Origin: an uncultured Faecalicoccus sp.
GTDB taxonomy: Bacteria > Bacillota_I > Bacilli_A > Erysipelotrichales > Erysipelotrichaceae
Direction of reading: 5' to 3'
DNA length: 44,218 bases
NCBI RefSeq assembly: GCF_944327125.1
Contig: NZ_CALVGO010000006.1
Span: 1 to 44,218, forward strand
Position numbers and translations under genes: made by a program. Positions 9,526 to 16,383 of this stretch are shown in pieces; positions within the stretch are counted from its first letter, which is position 1; each line of letters starts with the position of its first letter. The notes beneath the pieces were generated by a model. The model ran no database searches. It was given only the letters and a program-made list of their open reading frames with translations, and was not told the origin of the DNA.

Positions 9526-9957
9526 GTGTTTATGGGGGAATACGCGCATAATATCGATCGTAAGGGGCGATTGATTATGCCTGCGAAATTTAGAGAAGAA
9601 CTCGGAGAACACGTTGTCGTTAACCGCGGATTAGACGGCTGCTTGTATGTATATACTGCAGACCAGTGGGATGTGGTATATCAAAAACTATCGAAACTGC
9701 CTTCCACCAATAAGGATGCGCGTATGTTTCAGCGTATGATGTTGGCCAAGGCGGCCGAGGTAGACCTGGACAGTCAGGGGCGAATTCTGATACCAAGAAC
9801 TCTGATCGAACTGGCAGGTTTGGAAAAAGAGTGTCTGATTGTCGGAATGGCCAGTCATATTGAGATCTGGTCTAAAGAGAAGTGGACACAGCTTGAAGAA
9901 GAACAGTCCAGCTCATTTGAAGAGTTTGCGGAGGCACTGAATGGATTCATGGAGTAA
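9526..9957 (+). CDS. mraZ: Transcriptional regulator MraZ
   Basis: A 143-aa protein with two tandem SpoVT-AbrB-like swapped-hairpin domains (about residues 1-60 and 75-135). The opening MFMGEYAHNIDRKGRLIMPAKFR and the second-repeat motif EVDLDSQGRILIPRTL are diagnostic. MraZ forms a ring-shaped oligomer that binds direct repeats at its own promoter and tunes the division cluster. The start is GTG 9526, matching the usual MFMGEY start, with GGGGGGTG eight bases upstream; ATG 9532 is a less likely alternative. It overlaps rsmH by 17 bases. Confidence 0.97.
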   Translation: MFMGEYAHNIDRKGRLIMPAKFREELGEHVVVNRGLDGCLYVYTADQWDVVYQKLSKLPSTNKDARMFQRMMLAKAAEVDLDSQGRILIPRTLIELAGLEKECLIVGMASHIEIWSKEKWTQLEEEQSSSFEEFAEALNGFME

Positions 9958-10885
9958 GGTTTCACACCAGAGCGTTTTGTTGAAGGAAACGATCGATATG
10001 CTCGATGTGAAAGAAGATGGCGTTTATGTCGATTGCACGTTAGGCAGAGGGGGCCACAGTGCAGAGATCCTGAAACGTTGTCCCAAGGGACACTTATATT
10101 GTTTGGATTGCGATAAGGAAGCCATTGAACAAAGTACACTTCGTTTATCCAAAATCGGAGATAACTTCACTTGTATACATACTTCGTTTATGAATTTGAA
10201 GGAAGTGCTTGCCAAAGAAGGTATCTCTAGTATCGATGGACTGGTCATGGATCTGGGTGTTTCCAGTCCGCAGTTTGATGATCCTCAAAGGGGTTTCAGT
10301 TATCGGTTTGATGCCAGACTTGATATGCGAATGGATCAAAGCCAAAAACTGGATGCCTGGACGGTCATCAACACGTATTCTCAGGAAGAGTTGTTTAAGA
10401 TCTTCAAGGAATATGGAGAAGATCCGAACGCTTATCGGATCGCGGCAGGAATTGTCAATGCCCGCAAGGAAAAACCAATCGATACAACATTTGAACTGGT
10501 CGATGTGATCAAAGCCAGTCTTCCGGCAAAGGTTCTCAATAAAAAAGGACATCCTGCCAAGCAGATCTTTCAGGCGATTCGCATCGAAGTCAATCAGGAA
10601 TTGAAACAGCTTCCCATCGCTTTAAGGGACGCGATAGAGATGCTCAATCCTGGTGGCAGGATCGCGGTCATAACGTTTCATTCACTGGAAGATCGCATCG
10701 TTAAGAATTTGTTCAGGGAAAAAGCTGTTCAGAAAAAGGCAGATCGAAGACTGCCGCAAATAGGGATGGAAAATTTAGAATTTGAATTGATTTCAAGAAA
10801 ACCGGTAACAGCCGCAAAAGAAGAGCTGGAAAACAATCACAGGTCTCACAGTGCAAAACTTAGGGGATTGAAAAGGAAAGAGTAG
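9941..10885 (+). CDS. rsmH: 16S rRNA (cytosine(1402)-N4)-methyltransferase
   Basis: A 314-aa AdoMet-dependent enzyme that N4-methylates C1402 in the ribosomal P-site of 16S rRNA. Signatures are HQSVLLKETIDML, the AdoMet loop VDCTLGRGGHS near residues 29-39, and GLVMDLGVSSPQFDD followed by RGFSYRFDARLDMRMD near 95-130. The inserted helical domain and the C-terminal HSLEDRIVKNLFR motif are present. GGAGG at 9931-9935 precedes the ATG, which lies inside the 3' end of mraZ, so translation is coupled. Second gene of the division cluster, as in most Bacillota. Confidence 0.97.
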   Translation: MDSWSKVSHQSVLLKETIDMLDVKEDGVYVDCTLGRGGHSAEILKRCPKGHLYCLDCDKEAIEQSTLRLSKIGDNFTCIHTSFMNLKEVLAKEGISSIDGLVMDLGVSSPQFDDPQRGFSYRFDARLDMRMDQSQKLDAWTVINTYSQEELFKIFKEYGEDPNAYRIAAGIVNARKEKPIDTTFELVDVIKASLPAKVLNKKGHPAKQIFQAIRIEVNQELKQLPIALRDAIEMLNPGGRIAVITFHSLEDRIVKNLFREKAVQKKADRRLPQIGMENLEFELISRKPVTAAKEELENNHRSHSAKLRGLKRKE

Positions 10886-10891
10886 ATTAAA

Positions 10892-11212
10892 ATGGACAAG
10901 AGAGTAGGAATGAAAAAACAGAATAATAAAAAGAGACGTCATATTCGTCAGCTTCGTCCAGAGAAAATGCTTTTACTGGTATTTGCTCTTTCATTTGTCT
11001 TCTATTGCTTTTCAAAAATCGGCTTGAATTCATACAATATTACTTTATCTGTTGAAGAACAGAAACTTGCAGCGGAAGTGGCAGAAAAACAAGATCAGAT
11101 CCACTCTTTAAAGACGGATATTTCTACCCTTCAGGACAAAAATAAAATGCTGGGGCTTGCTGGAGATGATTTAAGCGAAAACCAGGATAACATTTATGTA
11201 ATCAACAATTAA
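10892..11212 (+). CDS. ftsL: Cell division protein FtsL-like
   Basis: A 106-aa single-pass membrane protein: a short basic cytoplasmic tail (KKRRHIRQLR), one membrane span at about 27-45, then an extracytoplasmic coiled coil (about 50-90, LAAEVAEKQDQIHSLKTDISTLQDKNKML). This size, topology and position between rsmH and the division PBP define FtsL, which with DivIC and DivIB activates septal wall synthesis. The sequence itself is poorly conserved in this family, so the call rests on layout and neighbours. It starts six bases after rsmH; AAGGAAAGAG is the likely ribosome site. Confidence 0.85.
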   Translation: MDKRVGMKKQNNKKRRHIRQLRPEKMLLLVFALSFVFYCFSKIGLNSYNITLSVEEQKLAAEVAEKQDQIHSLKTDISTLQDKNKMLGLAGDDLSENQDNIYVINN

Positions 11213-11230
11213 TTGAATGGATGGATGTGC

Positions 11231-13474
11231 ATGGCTGTTAAGCGTAAAGTAGTAAAGAGAAAGCCAGACAAGCGAGTTCAGCGGATACGGGTTCGCAACA
11301 GCAATCGTCAGCTTTTTCGAATGATTCGAGTGATGTGTTTTATAGGAACATTAGTGATTGCTAATGTTCTTTTCACTATGGTCACTAAAACGCATATCTG
11401 GTCAGGAGAGAGCGTTTTAAACTCGAAAGTATCCTCTTCCATTGTAAATACGACCGTGGAAGCCAAACGCGGAACGATCTATGACCGCAATCGCCAGGTC
11501 ATTGCCCAGGAGGTGGAAGCCTGGACGATCGTTGCGTATCTGGATGACGACATTGTCGATGAAAATGGAGATCCTGACTACGTAAAGAATGCTTCGCGTA
11601 CAGCCAAAAAACTCAGTTCGGTCTTAGAGGATGCGAACAAAAAGAATATAGAAAAAATATTAAAGAGTGCGATGAAACAAGGATTGTCGCAAACGGAACT
11701 GGGAACGGGAACGAAACGTCTTGATGAAGAAACGATGAAAGCTGTCAAAAAGCTGGATCTTCCAGGAATCGGTTTTATCGGTACGACCAATCGAAATTAT
11801 CCGACAACGCCTTATTCCAGTACGCTGGTGGGCTTTGCGGCTTTTGATGAAGATGAGCAGCGAGTCGTTGGAAAAATGGGGCTTGAGCAAAGCATGAATG
11901 ATATCCTTGCAGGAGAAGATGGACAGGTTCAGTACCAGCAGACTGTGAGCGGAAACATTTTGCCAGGGACAACGACAGTATATAAAGAGGCTAAAGATGG
12001 TGATAATGTCGTTTTGACATTAGACAGCAGTCTGCAGTCGGTCGTGGAAAAGGCTATGAAAGAAACGATGGAATACAACCGGGCCGAAAGCGCCTGGGCC
12101 GTTGTTATGGAAGTGGAGACCGGAAAGATCCTGGCTTGGTCAAGTTATCCAAGTTATGACCAGAATAAACATAAGGAGATTCCTTCGTATACCGATGCCG
12201 TCAGTTCGATGGTGTACGAGCCGGGATCTGTCATGAAGCCGTTTACGTATGCAGCCGCTGTTGATACGGATACTTTCCCATACAATACAATGTACCGGGC
12301 AGGAAGCTTTGAATATGGCTATGACAGTACAACGAATAAGATCAATCGTGTTTATGGTGCGAATACCGGGTATCCTACGATTTATGATGCCCAGGGAAAT
12401 GACTATGGAACCTTGACATTTGAAGACGGGCTGGCGTTTTCCAGTAACGTAGGTATCTGTGAATTGTTAGCCAATTATATGGATTATGATTCGTTAGGAA
12501 AATATTTAGACCGTTTTGGATTCTTCCAGGAGACCGGGATCCCTTATGTGACCGAAGGTGTCGGGCAGAAAAATGTTGGAGTGCCTATGGACTATCTTCG
12601 TACAGGGTTTGGACAGTCCAGTTCGATCACCGTACTTCAGCTGATCCAGGCTTATTCAGCCATCTTTAATGATGGTATCATGGTTCGTCCCTATGTTGTT
12701 GATTCGATTGAAGATGCCAAGACCGGGGAAGTGATCAAGTCTTATAAGACCAAAGTGCAGGGGACGCCAATCTCTAAGGAAACAGCCAATGAGATTGTGG
12801 AAATGATGACCCATGTTTTGGATGAAGGACGATCGGGAGAGCGCTTCAAGATTGATGGCGTCAGTATGGCGGCCAAGACAGGAACGGGCGAGATCTACGA
12901 TGTGGACAAAGGAAAATACGATACCGTCAATTATACGTCCAGCGTTATTGCGGCCGCTCCGGCTGAGGATGCGAAAGTTCTGGTTTACTGGGGAATGATC
13001 GGGCCGAATTTTGTCAATTACAGCGCTCAGCAATTTCAGGATATCATGCGTGCGGCTCTGATTGCCTACGGTGTCAGCAGTGCTCCGCAGGAAACCGAAG
13101 AGGAAGAAGAAACCGAGAAGTGGGAAACCTATACCATGCCAAGCCTGGTAAACCATTCCATGAGTTATGCGGAAGAAAAAATGAAAAACTGGAAATGCCA
13201 GATCGTTAAGATCGGGTCGGGTTCTGTGGTGACAGAACAATATCCGAAAGAGGGAAGTACGGTAAGTTCAGGCGACCGGGTCTTCCTTCTGACCGATGGA
13301 AATGATATCAAAATGCCGGACATGAAAGGGTGGACGCGTAAAGATATCACAGCTTTCTGGGAATTGACAGGAATTCAGATAAAGACAGACGGATATGGGG
13401 CGGTTGTTTCTCAAAGCGTGGAACCGGATACGGCCATTTCGGCAAATTCGGATATTACCGTCACTTTAGAGTAA
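11231..13474 (+). CDS. Division penicillin-binding protein with two PASTA domains (PBP2x/FtsI class)
   Basis: A class B transpeptidase of about 747 aa that crosslinks septal peptidoglycan. The frame opens at a TTG (11213) directly after the ftsL stop, but ATG 11231 with GGATGGA just upstream (11219-11225) is more likely. After a basic tail and one membrane span (about 25-47) come the PBP dimerisation domain (RGTIYDRN near 77), then the transpeptidase motifs SVMK (Ser near 333), SSN (near 404-406) and KTGTG (near 549). Two PASTA domains follow (about 636-690 and 692-747), as in S. pneumoniae PBP2x and B. subtilis PBP2b/SpoVD. They bind wall fragments or muropeptides. It ends about 100 bases before the ftsA promoter region. 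Confidence 0.95.
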   Translation: MAVKRKVVKRKPDKRVQRIRVRNSNRQLFRMIRVMCFIGTLVIANVLFTMVTKTHIWSGESVLNSKVSSSIVNTTVEAKRGTIYDRNRQVIAQEVEAWTIVAYLDDDIVDENGDPDYVKNASRTAKKLSSVLEDANKKNIEKILKSAMKQGLSQTELGTGTKRLDEETMKAVKKLDLPGIGFIGTTNRNYPTTPYSSTLVGFAAFDEDEQRVVGKMGLEQSMNDILAGEDGQVQYQQTVSGNILPGTTTVYKEAKDGDNVVLTLDSSLQSVVEKAMKETMEYNRAESAWAVVMEVETGKILAWSSYPSYDQNKHKEIPSYTDAVSSMVYEPGSVMKPFTYAAAVDTDTFPYNTMYRAGSFEYGYDSTTNKINRVYGANTGYPTIYDAQGNDYGTLTFEDGLAFSSNVGICELLANYMDYDSLGKYLDRFGFFQETGIPYVTEGVGQKNVGVPMDYLRTGFGQSSSITVLQLIQAYSAIFNDGIMVRPYVVDSIEDAKTGEVIKSYKTKVQGTPISKETANEIVEMMTHVLDEGRSGERFKIDGVSMAAKTGTGEIYDVDKGKYDTVNYTSSVIAAAPAEDAKVLVYWGMIGPNFVNYSAQQFQDIMRAALIAYGVSSAPQETEEEEETEKWETYTMPSLVNHSMSYAEEKMKNWKCQIVKIGSGSVVTEQYPKEGSTVSSGDRVFLLTDGNDIKMPDMKGWTRKDITAFWELTGIQIKTDGYGAVVSQSVEPDTAISANSDITVTLE

Positions 13475-13530
13475 AAACGTTGAATTTTTTTAGACAATGT
13501 GAAATAGTACTAAACTTCTATTCAGAAATT

Positions 13531-13546
13531 TGTTATAATCTATAAT
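13531..13546 (+). promoter_or_regulatory. Internal promoter ahead of ftsA-ftsZ
   Basis: An extended -10, TGTTATAAT (13531-13539), with a second TATAAT at 13541-13546. No good -35 is visible at the right distance, which extended -10 promoters tolerate. It lies in the 100-base gap between the PBP gene and ftsA, so ftsA-ftsZ can be expressed apart from the mraZ promoter. Confidence 0.6.
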
Positions 13547-13574
13547 GATTCAAATCAGAAGAAGGAGAATGTGA

Positions 13575-14840
13575 ATGCCTAAGAAAAAAGTATATGCGAC
13601 CGTTGAAATCGCAGATCAGGAAATACGCCTAATCGTACTGGAAATTTTTGAGGCCAGAAATAACGTCTTGCGTGTCGAGCGTGTTCATTGTTCAGGCGTT
13701 CAGAATCAAAAAATCGTTGATGAAGCAGCGGTGGTCAAAGCCATCCAGGAAGCTTGTAAAAATGCGCAGAATGCTTTGGGATTCCGCATTGAAAGAGTCT
13801 TGTTGGCAATACCAAGCGTGAATGTACAGCGCTGTTCCCAAAAGATCCATGTGCAGATCTCGGATGGAACCAAAACGATTCGCCTGTTCCATATTCAGCA
13901 AGGCTTCAATAAGGCCATTGAAAAACAGCTGAGTGAGGAAGTTGTCTTTGTCAATGTGAATCAGATCACCTATTACATCAATGGAGAAGCAACACATAAG
14001 CTCCCATTGGGGAAAGAATGTGATGATTTCTATATGGAAGTGGACTTATTGTATGCCGATAAAGAAACGATGTATGCCTATGCCCGCTGCATAGAGCAGT
14101 CGAATCTGCAGATTCTGGATGTTTGTATCGATGCCTATGCCCTGGCACAGGAAACAGGCGCTTTGATCTCGGATCCGCAAAGACCGATCGTACAGATCGA
14201 TCTGGAACAAGATCACTGCACGTTAGCTTTGTTCCAGCATGGCCGTTTATTGAATACAACAACTTTAAATCAGGGATATAAGTTCTTTACAGAAGAGCTT
14301 CAGCGAAAATATGAACTGAGCGATGCGATTTGTTACCGCTTGCTGGAAAATATATTTACATCGGATGAAGACAGTGCCAGCGATGTGATCTGTTATATCG
14401 AACAGAAAGAAAAGTTCCGTGTAGAGATCACGCTGGAGGAACTGGCGGCTTCTTGTCTGCCTAGGATCCGTGCCTGGATCGCCGATATCAATGAAGCCTG
14501 TGCACCAATTGCCGGTCAGTCTTCCCAGTCCATGCGCTATATCTTGACTGGACAGGGAGCGAATATCCGCGTTCTGTCTATGATGCTCAATGCGTTCAAT
14601 GCGAATGCACAGGTGTTTGAAGAACAGACGATCGGGGCTCGCGATGGGGCTTATGTTTGCGGTTTGGGAATGGCGTATGCATGGCAATATGTCAATAAGA
14701 TCCGTAAAGAAGATAAAATCAGCGTCAACAACAATGAGCTGGAAGCCAGTATTGATTCCATCAATCAGCATGCCAAAGAGAATGCCGAAGGTGGATTTAC
14801 ACAAAAACTTAAGAATGCGATCTTGTCAGAGAAAGAATAA
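13575..14840 (+). CDS. ftsA: FtsA-like divisome actin homologue with eroded nucleotide-binding motifs
   Basis: A 421-aa protein directly upstream of ftsZ, with the length and strand-helix pattern of FtsA, which tethers FtsZ to the membrane and recruits the divisome. The ends match expectation: an N-terminal '[16 protein letters not shown]' where actins carry the phosphate-1 DxGxxxxK loop, a C-terminal [16 protein letters not shown] in place of the adenosine motif, and a final [12 protein letters not shown] segment that could be the amphipathic membrane helix. The phosphate-1 and phosphate-2 loops are not canonical: the latter reads [14 protein letters not shown], without the DxGGGT pattern. 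It may be a diverged FtsA that binds ATP weakly or not at all. The start follows GAAGGAG. Confidence 0.8.
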
Positions 14841-14857
14841 ATTGGAGGAAAAGAAAG

Positions 14858-15949
14858 ATGACAGAATTTAATCAAGTTGCGACGATCCGTGTGCTCGGTG
14901 TCGGAGGAGGCGGATCCAACGCTGTGAACCGAATGGTAGCGGATGGAGTAAAGGGAGTAGATTTTTATATCTGCAACACGGATATCCAGGTAATGAAAAA
15001 TTCTCCATGCCAGAATAAAATCGTATTAGGACGTGAAACGACAAAAGGTCTAGGAGCGGGAGGAAATCCTGAATTTGGACGTAAAGCCGCTGAAGAAAGC
15101 GAAAGCGAAATTCGTGAAGCCATTAAAGGCAGCGATATGGTCTTCATCACGGCCGGAATGGGTGGTGGAACCGGAACCGGTGCCGCTCCGCTGATCGCAA
15201 AGATCTCAAAAGAAGAAGGCGCTCTTACAGTTGCCGTTGTCACCAAACCATTTACTTTTGAAGGGAAAAGACGCTCCAACAACGCCGCTGACGGAATTGA
15301 AGAATTGAAAAAACACGTTGATTCTTTGATCGTTGTTTCTAACGATAACTTATTGGAAGTGATTGGACGCAAACCAATCGAAGAAGCGTTCCAGGCTGCC
15401 GATAACGTATTGCGTCAGGGTGTACAGACAATTTCTGACTTGATTGCCGTACCGGCTCTGGTCAACCTGGACTTTGCCGATGTTCGCAGTGTAATGCAGA
15501 ACCAGGGACGCGCTTTGATCGGTATTGGTATGGCTGAAGGCGAAGACAAAGCGGTCAATGCCGCTGAAAAAGCCATCCAGTCTCCTTTACTGGAAGCGCA
15601 GATCAATGGGGCTACCAGCGCCATCATCAATATCACAGGTGGAGATAAAGTTTCTCTGTTCGATGCGCAGAACGCAGTTGCGGTAATTCAGGATGCCGCT
15701 GGCGGCGATGTGGACTGCATCTTTGGAATTGCGATCAACGAACAGCTGGGCGATGCCATTATCGTTACCGTCATTGCCACAGGCTTTGAGGAACCTAAGA
15801 AAGTCGCAAAGAAACGCAGTGATGCAAGACCAAAGGAATCTTTATTCACACAGCCATCTTTACAGACGCCTGTACAGGGAGGCGTAGTGACCAGCGTTGA
15901 AGAAACAGCGCAGGACGATACGATTCCTAACTTCTTCTTCAATCGCTAA
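14858..15949 (+). CDS. ftsZ: Cell division GTPase FtsZ
   Basis: A 363-aa tubulin homologue that forms the cytokinetic Z-ring. The GTP-binding [13 protein letters not shown] lies near residues 14-26, the tubulin signature [12 protein letters not shown] near 100-111, and the T7-loop region NLDFADVR near 207. The C-terminal peptide [11 protein letters not shown] fits the conserved tail that binds FtsA, SepF and EzrA, after a short linker (about 310-350). GGAGGAAAAG precedes the ATG. Its stop overlaps the start of the next gene in TAATG. Confidence 0.98.
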
Positions 15950-16383
15950 TGTTTGTTCTATATATTGATGATTCGTTTTTTGGAGCCAGTGATTTCTCCC
16001 GGGACATGCGGTATAAGCTTCGTGTTCTTTTAAAAGAAACGCCGATAGAAAATGTCTGGATCTCCAATGCGAAAACGGACAGTCATATCATTGAGAATTT
16101 CTTTAAGGAATTCCCGGATATCCATTATAAGGAAAGTACCCTTCGAATCACTCAGGATGAAAAAGATTGGGTTCTTTCCAATGCTTCTTTGAAGGTGGAG
16201 GACATCACGATTCGCCCTTATTCCGGAACGTATTGTTTAGTGGATACTAAATCGGGTCAGTATGAACGAATCTATCTTGATCTTTTTCCGCAGGAAGAAA
16301 CCGATCTCGTTTCTATCTTTATGGATTCGATCCAGGAAGCGATGGATCATCTTTCACCGAAAAAAGAAAAAATGAAATCTTAG
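15949..16383 (+). CDS. Unknown 144-aa protein translationally coupled to ftsZ
   Basis: I do not recognise this protein. It is 144 aa, soluble and mixed alpha/beta, with an opening [16 protein letters not shown] and a charged Lys-rich end. It has no signal peptide, membrane span or obvious catalytic motif. Its ATG shares one base with the ftsZ stop (TAATG), with no separate strong ribosome site, so it is likely translated by re-initiation after ftsZ. That placement, where other bacteria often have sepF or ylm genes, suggests a division-related role by association only. It does not resemble SepF: no conserved glycine-rich core is visible. A terminator follows immediately. Confidence 0.8.
   Translation: MFVLYIDDSFFGASDFSRDMRYKLRVLLKETPIENVWISNAKTDSHIIENFFKEFPDIHYKESTLRITQDEKDWVLSNASLKVEDITIRPYSGTYCLVDTKSGQYERIYLDLFPQEETDLVSIFMDSIQEAMDHLSPKKEKMKS

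Follow-up and report, generated by a model that had tools for sequence, protein, structure and literature searches.

A conserved motif in place of the ATP-holding glycines suggests that FtsA of the Erysipelotrichaceae works without ATP

Can FtsA do its work once the residues that hold ATP are gone? In the Escherichia coli and Streptococcus pneumoniae work covered by the accessible text of PMC10213515 and PMC5832921, ATP binding is regarded as the switch for FtsA polymerization, membrane binding, and constriction. The question is raised by a gene in a 44,218-nucleotide stretch of DNA (the window) from an uncultured member of the genus Faecalicoccus, family Erysipelotrichaceae (assembly size 1.42 Mb). 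A sequence-only reading of the window had described the gene product as an FtsA with degraded nucleotide-binding motifs that may not bind ATP.

The open reading frame starts with ATG, is intact, and ends 17 bases before ftsZ. Its nearest named loci are those of Faecalicoccus pleomorphus (86% identity) and Faecalicoccus acidiformans (80%). A profile search matches the protein to TIGR01174 (ftsA; E-value 3.8e-22), at 78.9 bits against a curated cut-off of 175.85 bits; judged by these scores, the protein is homologous to FtsA yet lies outside the curated equivalog. The same profile matches 43/43 members of our alignment A2. Among proteins of solved structure, the best relative is Staphylococcus aureus FtsA (E-value 3.5e-16), the alignment with which runs, at the level of sequence only, through the 1C domain region with no large gap, and a search of solved structures with the family alignment places six FtsA chains on top. 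The remaining actin-fold matches named in the genome comprise DnaK, an exopolyphosphatase, and two proteins of MreB type, and thus no second FtsA was found among them. Across the order, genomes carry one FtsA copy in nearly all cases. A scan of viral contigs for relatives of the window FtsA found none.

Table 1. Features of the division cluster and of the FtsA pocket in the window
Feature	Position	Strand	Remarks
mraZ	9526	+	recognized from translation
mraW	9941	+	recognized from translation
short ftsL-like gene	10892	+	recognized from translation; without Pfam match
transpeptidase with PASTA domains	11213	+	profile-checked
FtsA ortholog, 421 amino acids, sole FtsA of the genome	13575..14840	+	profile and structure-relative searches
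replaced phosphate-1 loop EIADQEIR, residues 11-18	13605..13628	+	canonical DIGSxxxK; family alignment
altered phosphate-2 loop DLEQDHCT, residues 209-216	14199..14222	+	canonical DIGxxxT; family alignment
altered adenosine loop TGQG, residues 325-328	14547..14558	+	canonical TGG; family alignment
conserved C-terminal segment, 16 residues, presumed membrane-targeting helix	14790..14837	+	conserved across the family
ftsZ, directly 3' of ftsA	14858..15949	+	TIGR00065, E-value 3.8e-127
FtsZ C-terminal peptide, 11 residues, presumed FtsA and SepF binding site	15914..15946	+	similar IPxFF-type ends across the family

Alignment with E. coli FtsA shows that the pocket glycines Gly-16, Gly-212, and Gly-337 are replaced by Ala-13, Glu-211, and Gln-327 in the window protein, which bears out the earlier statement that this FtsA no longer has the canonical nucleotide motifs. 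The adenosine-loop position of Gln-327 is a glutamate in most relatives. The stretches originally singled out as loops correspond to residues 10-19 (10 residues, phosphate 1) and 207-218 (12 residues, phosphate 2). Loops displaced to another part of the chain, which would have accounted for the altered motifs, were not found by alignment with S. aureus FtsA, since that alignment is collinear over residues 5-408. An AlphaFold2 model, computed from the window protein and three Faecalicoccus loci only, reached a pLDDT of 35.7 and was set aside.

Part of the original argument does not hold. That phosphate 2 contains no Gly-Gly pair had been taken as a sign of ATP loss, but the pair is not diagnostic, because the ATP-binding FtsA proteins of S. 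aureus (DIGEDVT) and Thermotoga maritima (NLGYNFT) are also without it; the T. maritima protein was crystallized with ATP-gamma-S (PDB ID 4A2B), according to the accessible text of PMC7613929 and also PMC6450608. The unusual feature on the alignment is that the last phosphate-2 glycine has disappeared along with the glycines of the other two loops. An acidic pocket was likewise tried as a diagnostic and dropped: summed over ten pocket positions, the net charge of S. aureus FtsA is about that of the mean of the window's family (about -4), and since S. aureus FtsA binds ATP, acidity alone proves nothing.

The change is not peculiar to the window. Besides the E. coli and S. aureus reference proteins, our alignment comprised 141 proteins, each from a different genome of the same class; 74 belong to the window's family (f1, Erysipelotrichaceae type), 19 to its sister family (f2), and 48 to nine other families. 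FtsA matches were found in 235/244 genomes of the order, and the proteins of part of these were taken into the alignment; loci repeating a genome (among them L006, L020, L021, and L040-L042) were excluded. In f1, a glycine occupies the Gly-16, Gly-212, and Gly-337 columns in 3, 6, and 2 of 74 proteins, respectively, compared with 19, 19, and 19 of 19 in f2 and 20, 20, and 20 of 20 in f12. None of the three glycines is present in 67/74 f1 proteins, one is present in 5, and all three are found in 2, both from genus g11; all three are present in 46/46 proteins of families f2, f12, f7, f13, and f9, so the loss in f1 is beyond chance. When scored by genus, all sampled members lack all three glycines in 49/54 f1 genera. 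Scoring of the residues across relatives, as had been proposed, thus reveals a lineage-wide change. The canonical phosphate-1 pattern is retained in 2/74 f1 rows versus 47/69 other rows, whereas a new pattern, E-x-[AST]-[DE]-x-E-[VIL]-R, occurs in 56/74 f1 rows and in 0/69 others.

The phosphate-1 glycine is also missing from 11/12 proteins of family f8, 3/3 of f19, and 3/3 of f10, which mostly keep one or both of the other glycines. These families (f8, L119-L126 and L152-L155; f10, L127-L129; f19, L132-L134) appear to represent a separate loss of the phosphate-1 glycine and a half-way state. Among the genomes with no FtsA match, the nearly complete G019 and G072 have no FtsA, FtsZ, or SepF match, gaps that most likely reflect missing sequence and not biology. 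Of the other seven, six are also without ftsZ, as would be expected if sequence were missing at the cluster, whereas G247 does have ftsZ but gave no match to FtsA at the search threshold.

The gene stands in the division cluster. The order ftsA-ftsZ is found in 73/74 f1 loci, and the remaining locus (L019) has a cut FtsZ frame. FtsZ tails are of the IPxFF type (IPxFFxxR) throughout f1 and of the VPxFLRNR type (VPxFLRNRK) in f2; the partner peptide, which we take to be the binding site for FtsA and SepF, is thus kept in the window's family. The tail type thus changes between the very families whose FtsA pockets are unlike, and a co-evolution of the partners is possible on these sequences. SepF is present in 114/118 genomes of the order, including that of the window. 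It was considered as a cause of the pocket change and rejected, because it is equally common in f2, where the pocket is intact. In division clusters, wall-precursor genes usually lie between the transpeptidase gene and ftsA. The window's cluster (9526-15949, plus strand) is short, with ftsA straight after the transpeptidase gene and no wall-precursor genes between them. A gene of 144 amino acids without a Pfam match (15949-16383, plus strand) overlaps the ftsZ stop codon by one base.

Seven of eight pairs of close relatives, four pairs being from within Faecalicoccus, give dN/dS values of 0.02-0.09; the ratio could not be computed for one pair because of saturation, and several pairs show many synonymous changes. 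Selection on f1 FtsA is purifying. Together with the position of ftsA beside ftsZ and the retained FtsZ C-terminal peptide, this makes it very likely that the window gene encodes a working FtsA.

To compare replacement with decay, 421 columns were ranked by entropy in a set of one protein per genus (53 genera, g11 left out). Glu-16 is kept in 51/53 genera (rank 11th of 421), Arg-18 in 50/53 (19th), and Asp-14 in 42/53 (66th), and conservation of the new phosphate-1 motif comes close to that of the best-kept columns in the whole protein. Phosphate-2 positions 209 and 211-214, in contrast, rank from 191st to 367th of 421. The high ranks of Glu-16 and Arg-18 set against these low ranks argue for a relaxed constraint on the phosphate-2 loop and for what seems to be a new, strict role of the phosphate-1 hairpin; by the same measure, phosphate 1 is best described as replaced and not decayed. 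The word "degraded" therefore suits phosphate 2, which drifts across f1, and not phosphate 1, where a new motif is conserved. That such a motif stands in place of the ATP-holding glycines suggests that f1 FtsA works without ATP, and a loss of ATP binding is strongly suggested by the residues themselves.

How could such a protein function? We favor, with somewhat better than even confidence, a sole functional FtsA in which the former ATP pocket has become a cleft that holds side chains and no nucleotide, so that the protein would serve as a fixed adaptor between FtsZ and the membrane. The window protein has lost the three glycines that bind the phosphates and the adenosine; it carries an acidic residue at each of positions 14 and 16 in phosphate 1 and another, Glu-211, in the phosphate-2 loop, and it keeps the basic Arg-18. 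Most likely, the carboxylates would substitute for the phosphates, whether or not a metal ion takes part, and would link the two halves of the actin fold; Asp-14, Glu-16, and Glu-211 could pair with Arg-18 or with a metal. The protein would thereby stay locked in a conformation resembling that of FtsA with ATP and would serve as a passive adaptor, with the FtsZ C-terminal peptide on one face and the C terminus touching the membrane, while turnover would come from FtsZ and SepF would provide a second anchor. We infer the absence of ATP binding, the closed cleft, the constant adaptor role, and the membrane contact. Most pocket mutants of E. coli FtsA that were tested fail (accessible text of PMC10213515), and ATP binding is required for polymerization and membrane attachment of S. 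pneumoniae FtsA (accessible text of PMC5832921). Yet f1 keeps its gene under strong selection, and so the ATP switch would have been made unnecessary or been replaced in this family; a fold kept active through its own side chains would be the simplest solution.

The C terminus bears on one part of this proposal. The earlier reading had added that, if ATP is not bound, FtsA of this lineage must attach to the membrane differently, which may or may not be so, the C-terminal segment being conserved. Compared with shuffled sequences, the hydrophobic moment of the window's C-terminal segment is not elevated (z 0.23), and the same is true of most f1 members; the mean z for amphipathicity is 0.54 in f1 versus 2.02 in f2. 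As the signal is weaker than in the sister family, contact of the f1 C-terminal segment with the membrane is something we infer.

The pocket residues can be read in other ways. ATP could still be bound, weakly or in a rearranged pocket in which other backbone amides replace the glycines and Glu-11 and Asp-209 hold Mg2+. These residues align with E. coli Glu-14 and Asp-210, which according to the accessible text of PMC10213515 lie near Mg2+ and were mutated there, and their retention in the window protein counts against the nucleotide-free cleft. The first of the two positions is Glu or Asp in 66/74 f1 proteins, FtsA tolerates much change in phosphate 2 (as in S. aureus and T. maritima), and families f8, f19, and f10 lack the phosphate-1 glycine and mostly keep the other two. 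We nevertheless consider bound ATP rather unlikely, because all three loops have changed together, because residues 14, 16, and 211 would point acidic side chains at the expected phosphate site, and because position 209, an Asp in 32/74 f1 proteins, is Lys, Arg, Asn, Gln, or Ser in many of them. The rebuilt pocket might instead bind a different ligand, either a divalent metal alone or another small molecule, and so keep a switch that answers to a new signal. Asp-14, the frequent His-15 (30/53 genera), Glu-16, and Asp-186 (50/53) are conserved near the former Mg2+ site, and Ala-188 of E. coli FtsA, at the position of Asp-186, lies 2-8 Å from Mg2+ (accessible text of PMC10213515). This reading appears doubtful, as the His-15 position is a Gln in the window protein and the phosphate-2 side is not conserved.

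Two further explanations would do without any new mechanism in the pocket or without FtsA itself. If SepF had taken over as the anchor and the constraint on the pocket had been lifted, FtsA would simply be decaying; the near universality of SepF in the order and the drifting phosphate-2 loop would fit. Decay is improbable because Gly-354, Arg-356, Gly-365, and the new phosphate-1 motif are all strongly conserved, because dN/dS values are low, and because SepF occurs equally often in the sister family, where the pocket is intact. That the protein is not FtsA at all, and that a PilM-like or other actin-fold protein has replaced FtsA in front of ftsZ, seems very improbable. PilM_2 (PF11104) is the sole actin-fold match in Pfam (E-value 4.1e-5), at 23.1 bits under a cut-off of 27, and the PilM profile TIGR01175 matches with an E-value of 1.8e-7 and 30.5 bits, under a cut-off of 133. 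Against these stand the far better match to TIGR01174, found throughout alignment A2, the FtsA chains that lead the solved structures for both the protein and the alignment, and the ftsZ gene that directly follows.

With the motif columns removed, f1 forms one clade in the FtsA tree (SH-aLRT 99). Genus g11, which keeps DIGS and GGGG, is nested within f1 in a tree of 102 rows (SH-aLRT 81-87) and lies outside the other f1 rows in a tree of 35 rows (support 46), in which the g11 set included one g110 and one g115 row; its place in the FtsZ tree is at an open fork close to the f1 base. Glu-16 is already present in one of the two g11 proteins (L026, DIGSYEVK), which would fit a stepwise change of the pocket.

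The window protein shares with canonical FtsA (E. coli, T. maritima, and S. aureus; TIGR01174) a collinear full-length homology, the ftsA-ftsZ order, and the FtsZ peptide partner, and it differs in the loss of three pocket glycines, in the new phosphate-1 motif, and in scoring below the curated cut-off. The cytoplasmic domain of GspL/EpsL uses an FtsA-like fold, reported to be without nucleotide, as a scaffold at a membrane machine, its role being in secretion and not in cell division. MPN316 of Mycoplasma pneumoniae and MG_223 of Mycoplasma genitalium are presumably orthologs. The window protein matches the MPN316 family profile (NF045748) with an E-value of 2.7e-13 and 49.9 bits, under a cut-off of 500 bits; members of that family likewise precede ftsZ (8/8 loci) and have lost the pocket, whereas their phosphate-1 residues are different, the adenosine region can hardly be aligned, and their hosts are wall-less. 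In the eight MPN316-type proteins of genus g201, the phosphate-1 glycine is absent from 8/8 and the phosphate-2 glycine from 7/8 (L213 keeps one); a ninth match in family f23 (L221, genus g206) has no ftsZ in its stretch and stands outside this count. Spiroplasma-type FtsA (f5) also has no pocket glycines (2/2) and an adjoining ftsZ, its phosphate 1 reading EIKNYSFS and not E-x-A-D-x-E-x-R; one of the two proteins also entered the glycine counts by family. In their accessible text, PMC10568206 names MPN316 as ftsA-like, and PMC8475190 gives the M. genitalium cluster as mraZ, mraW, MG_223, and ftsZ.

A search of the open full-text literature, with subscription papers and preprints outside its scope, returned no report of an ATP-less FtsA in the Erysipelotrichaceae; within their accessible text, PMC11987601 treats FtsA as background only and PMC7203096 does not contain the word. 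As a tentative idea, which we hold to be possible rather than probable, FtsA would have escaped control by nucleotide on more than one occasion within the branch that unites the Erysipelotrichaceae and the mycoplasmas, and would have become an ATP-free actin; the f1 carboxylates of E-x-[AS]-D-x-E-x-R would replace the ATP phosphates and lock the active fold, the division ring would run on the GTP of FtsZ alone, and MPN316/MG_223 would be a reduced form. FtsA of this family offers a sequence bridge to the uncharacterized mycoplasma division protein MPN316/MG_223, and a whole family with a very likely working FtsA, in which the ATP pocket appears to have been traded for a conserved substitute, would serve as a natural experiment on which activities of FtsA depend on ATP.
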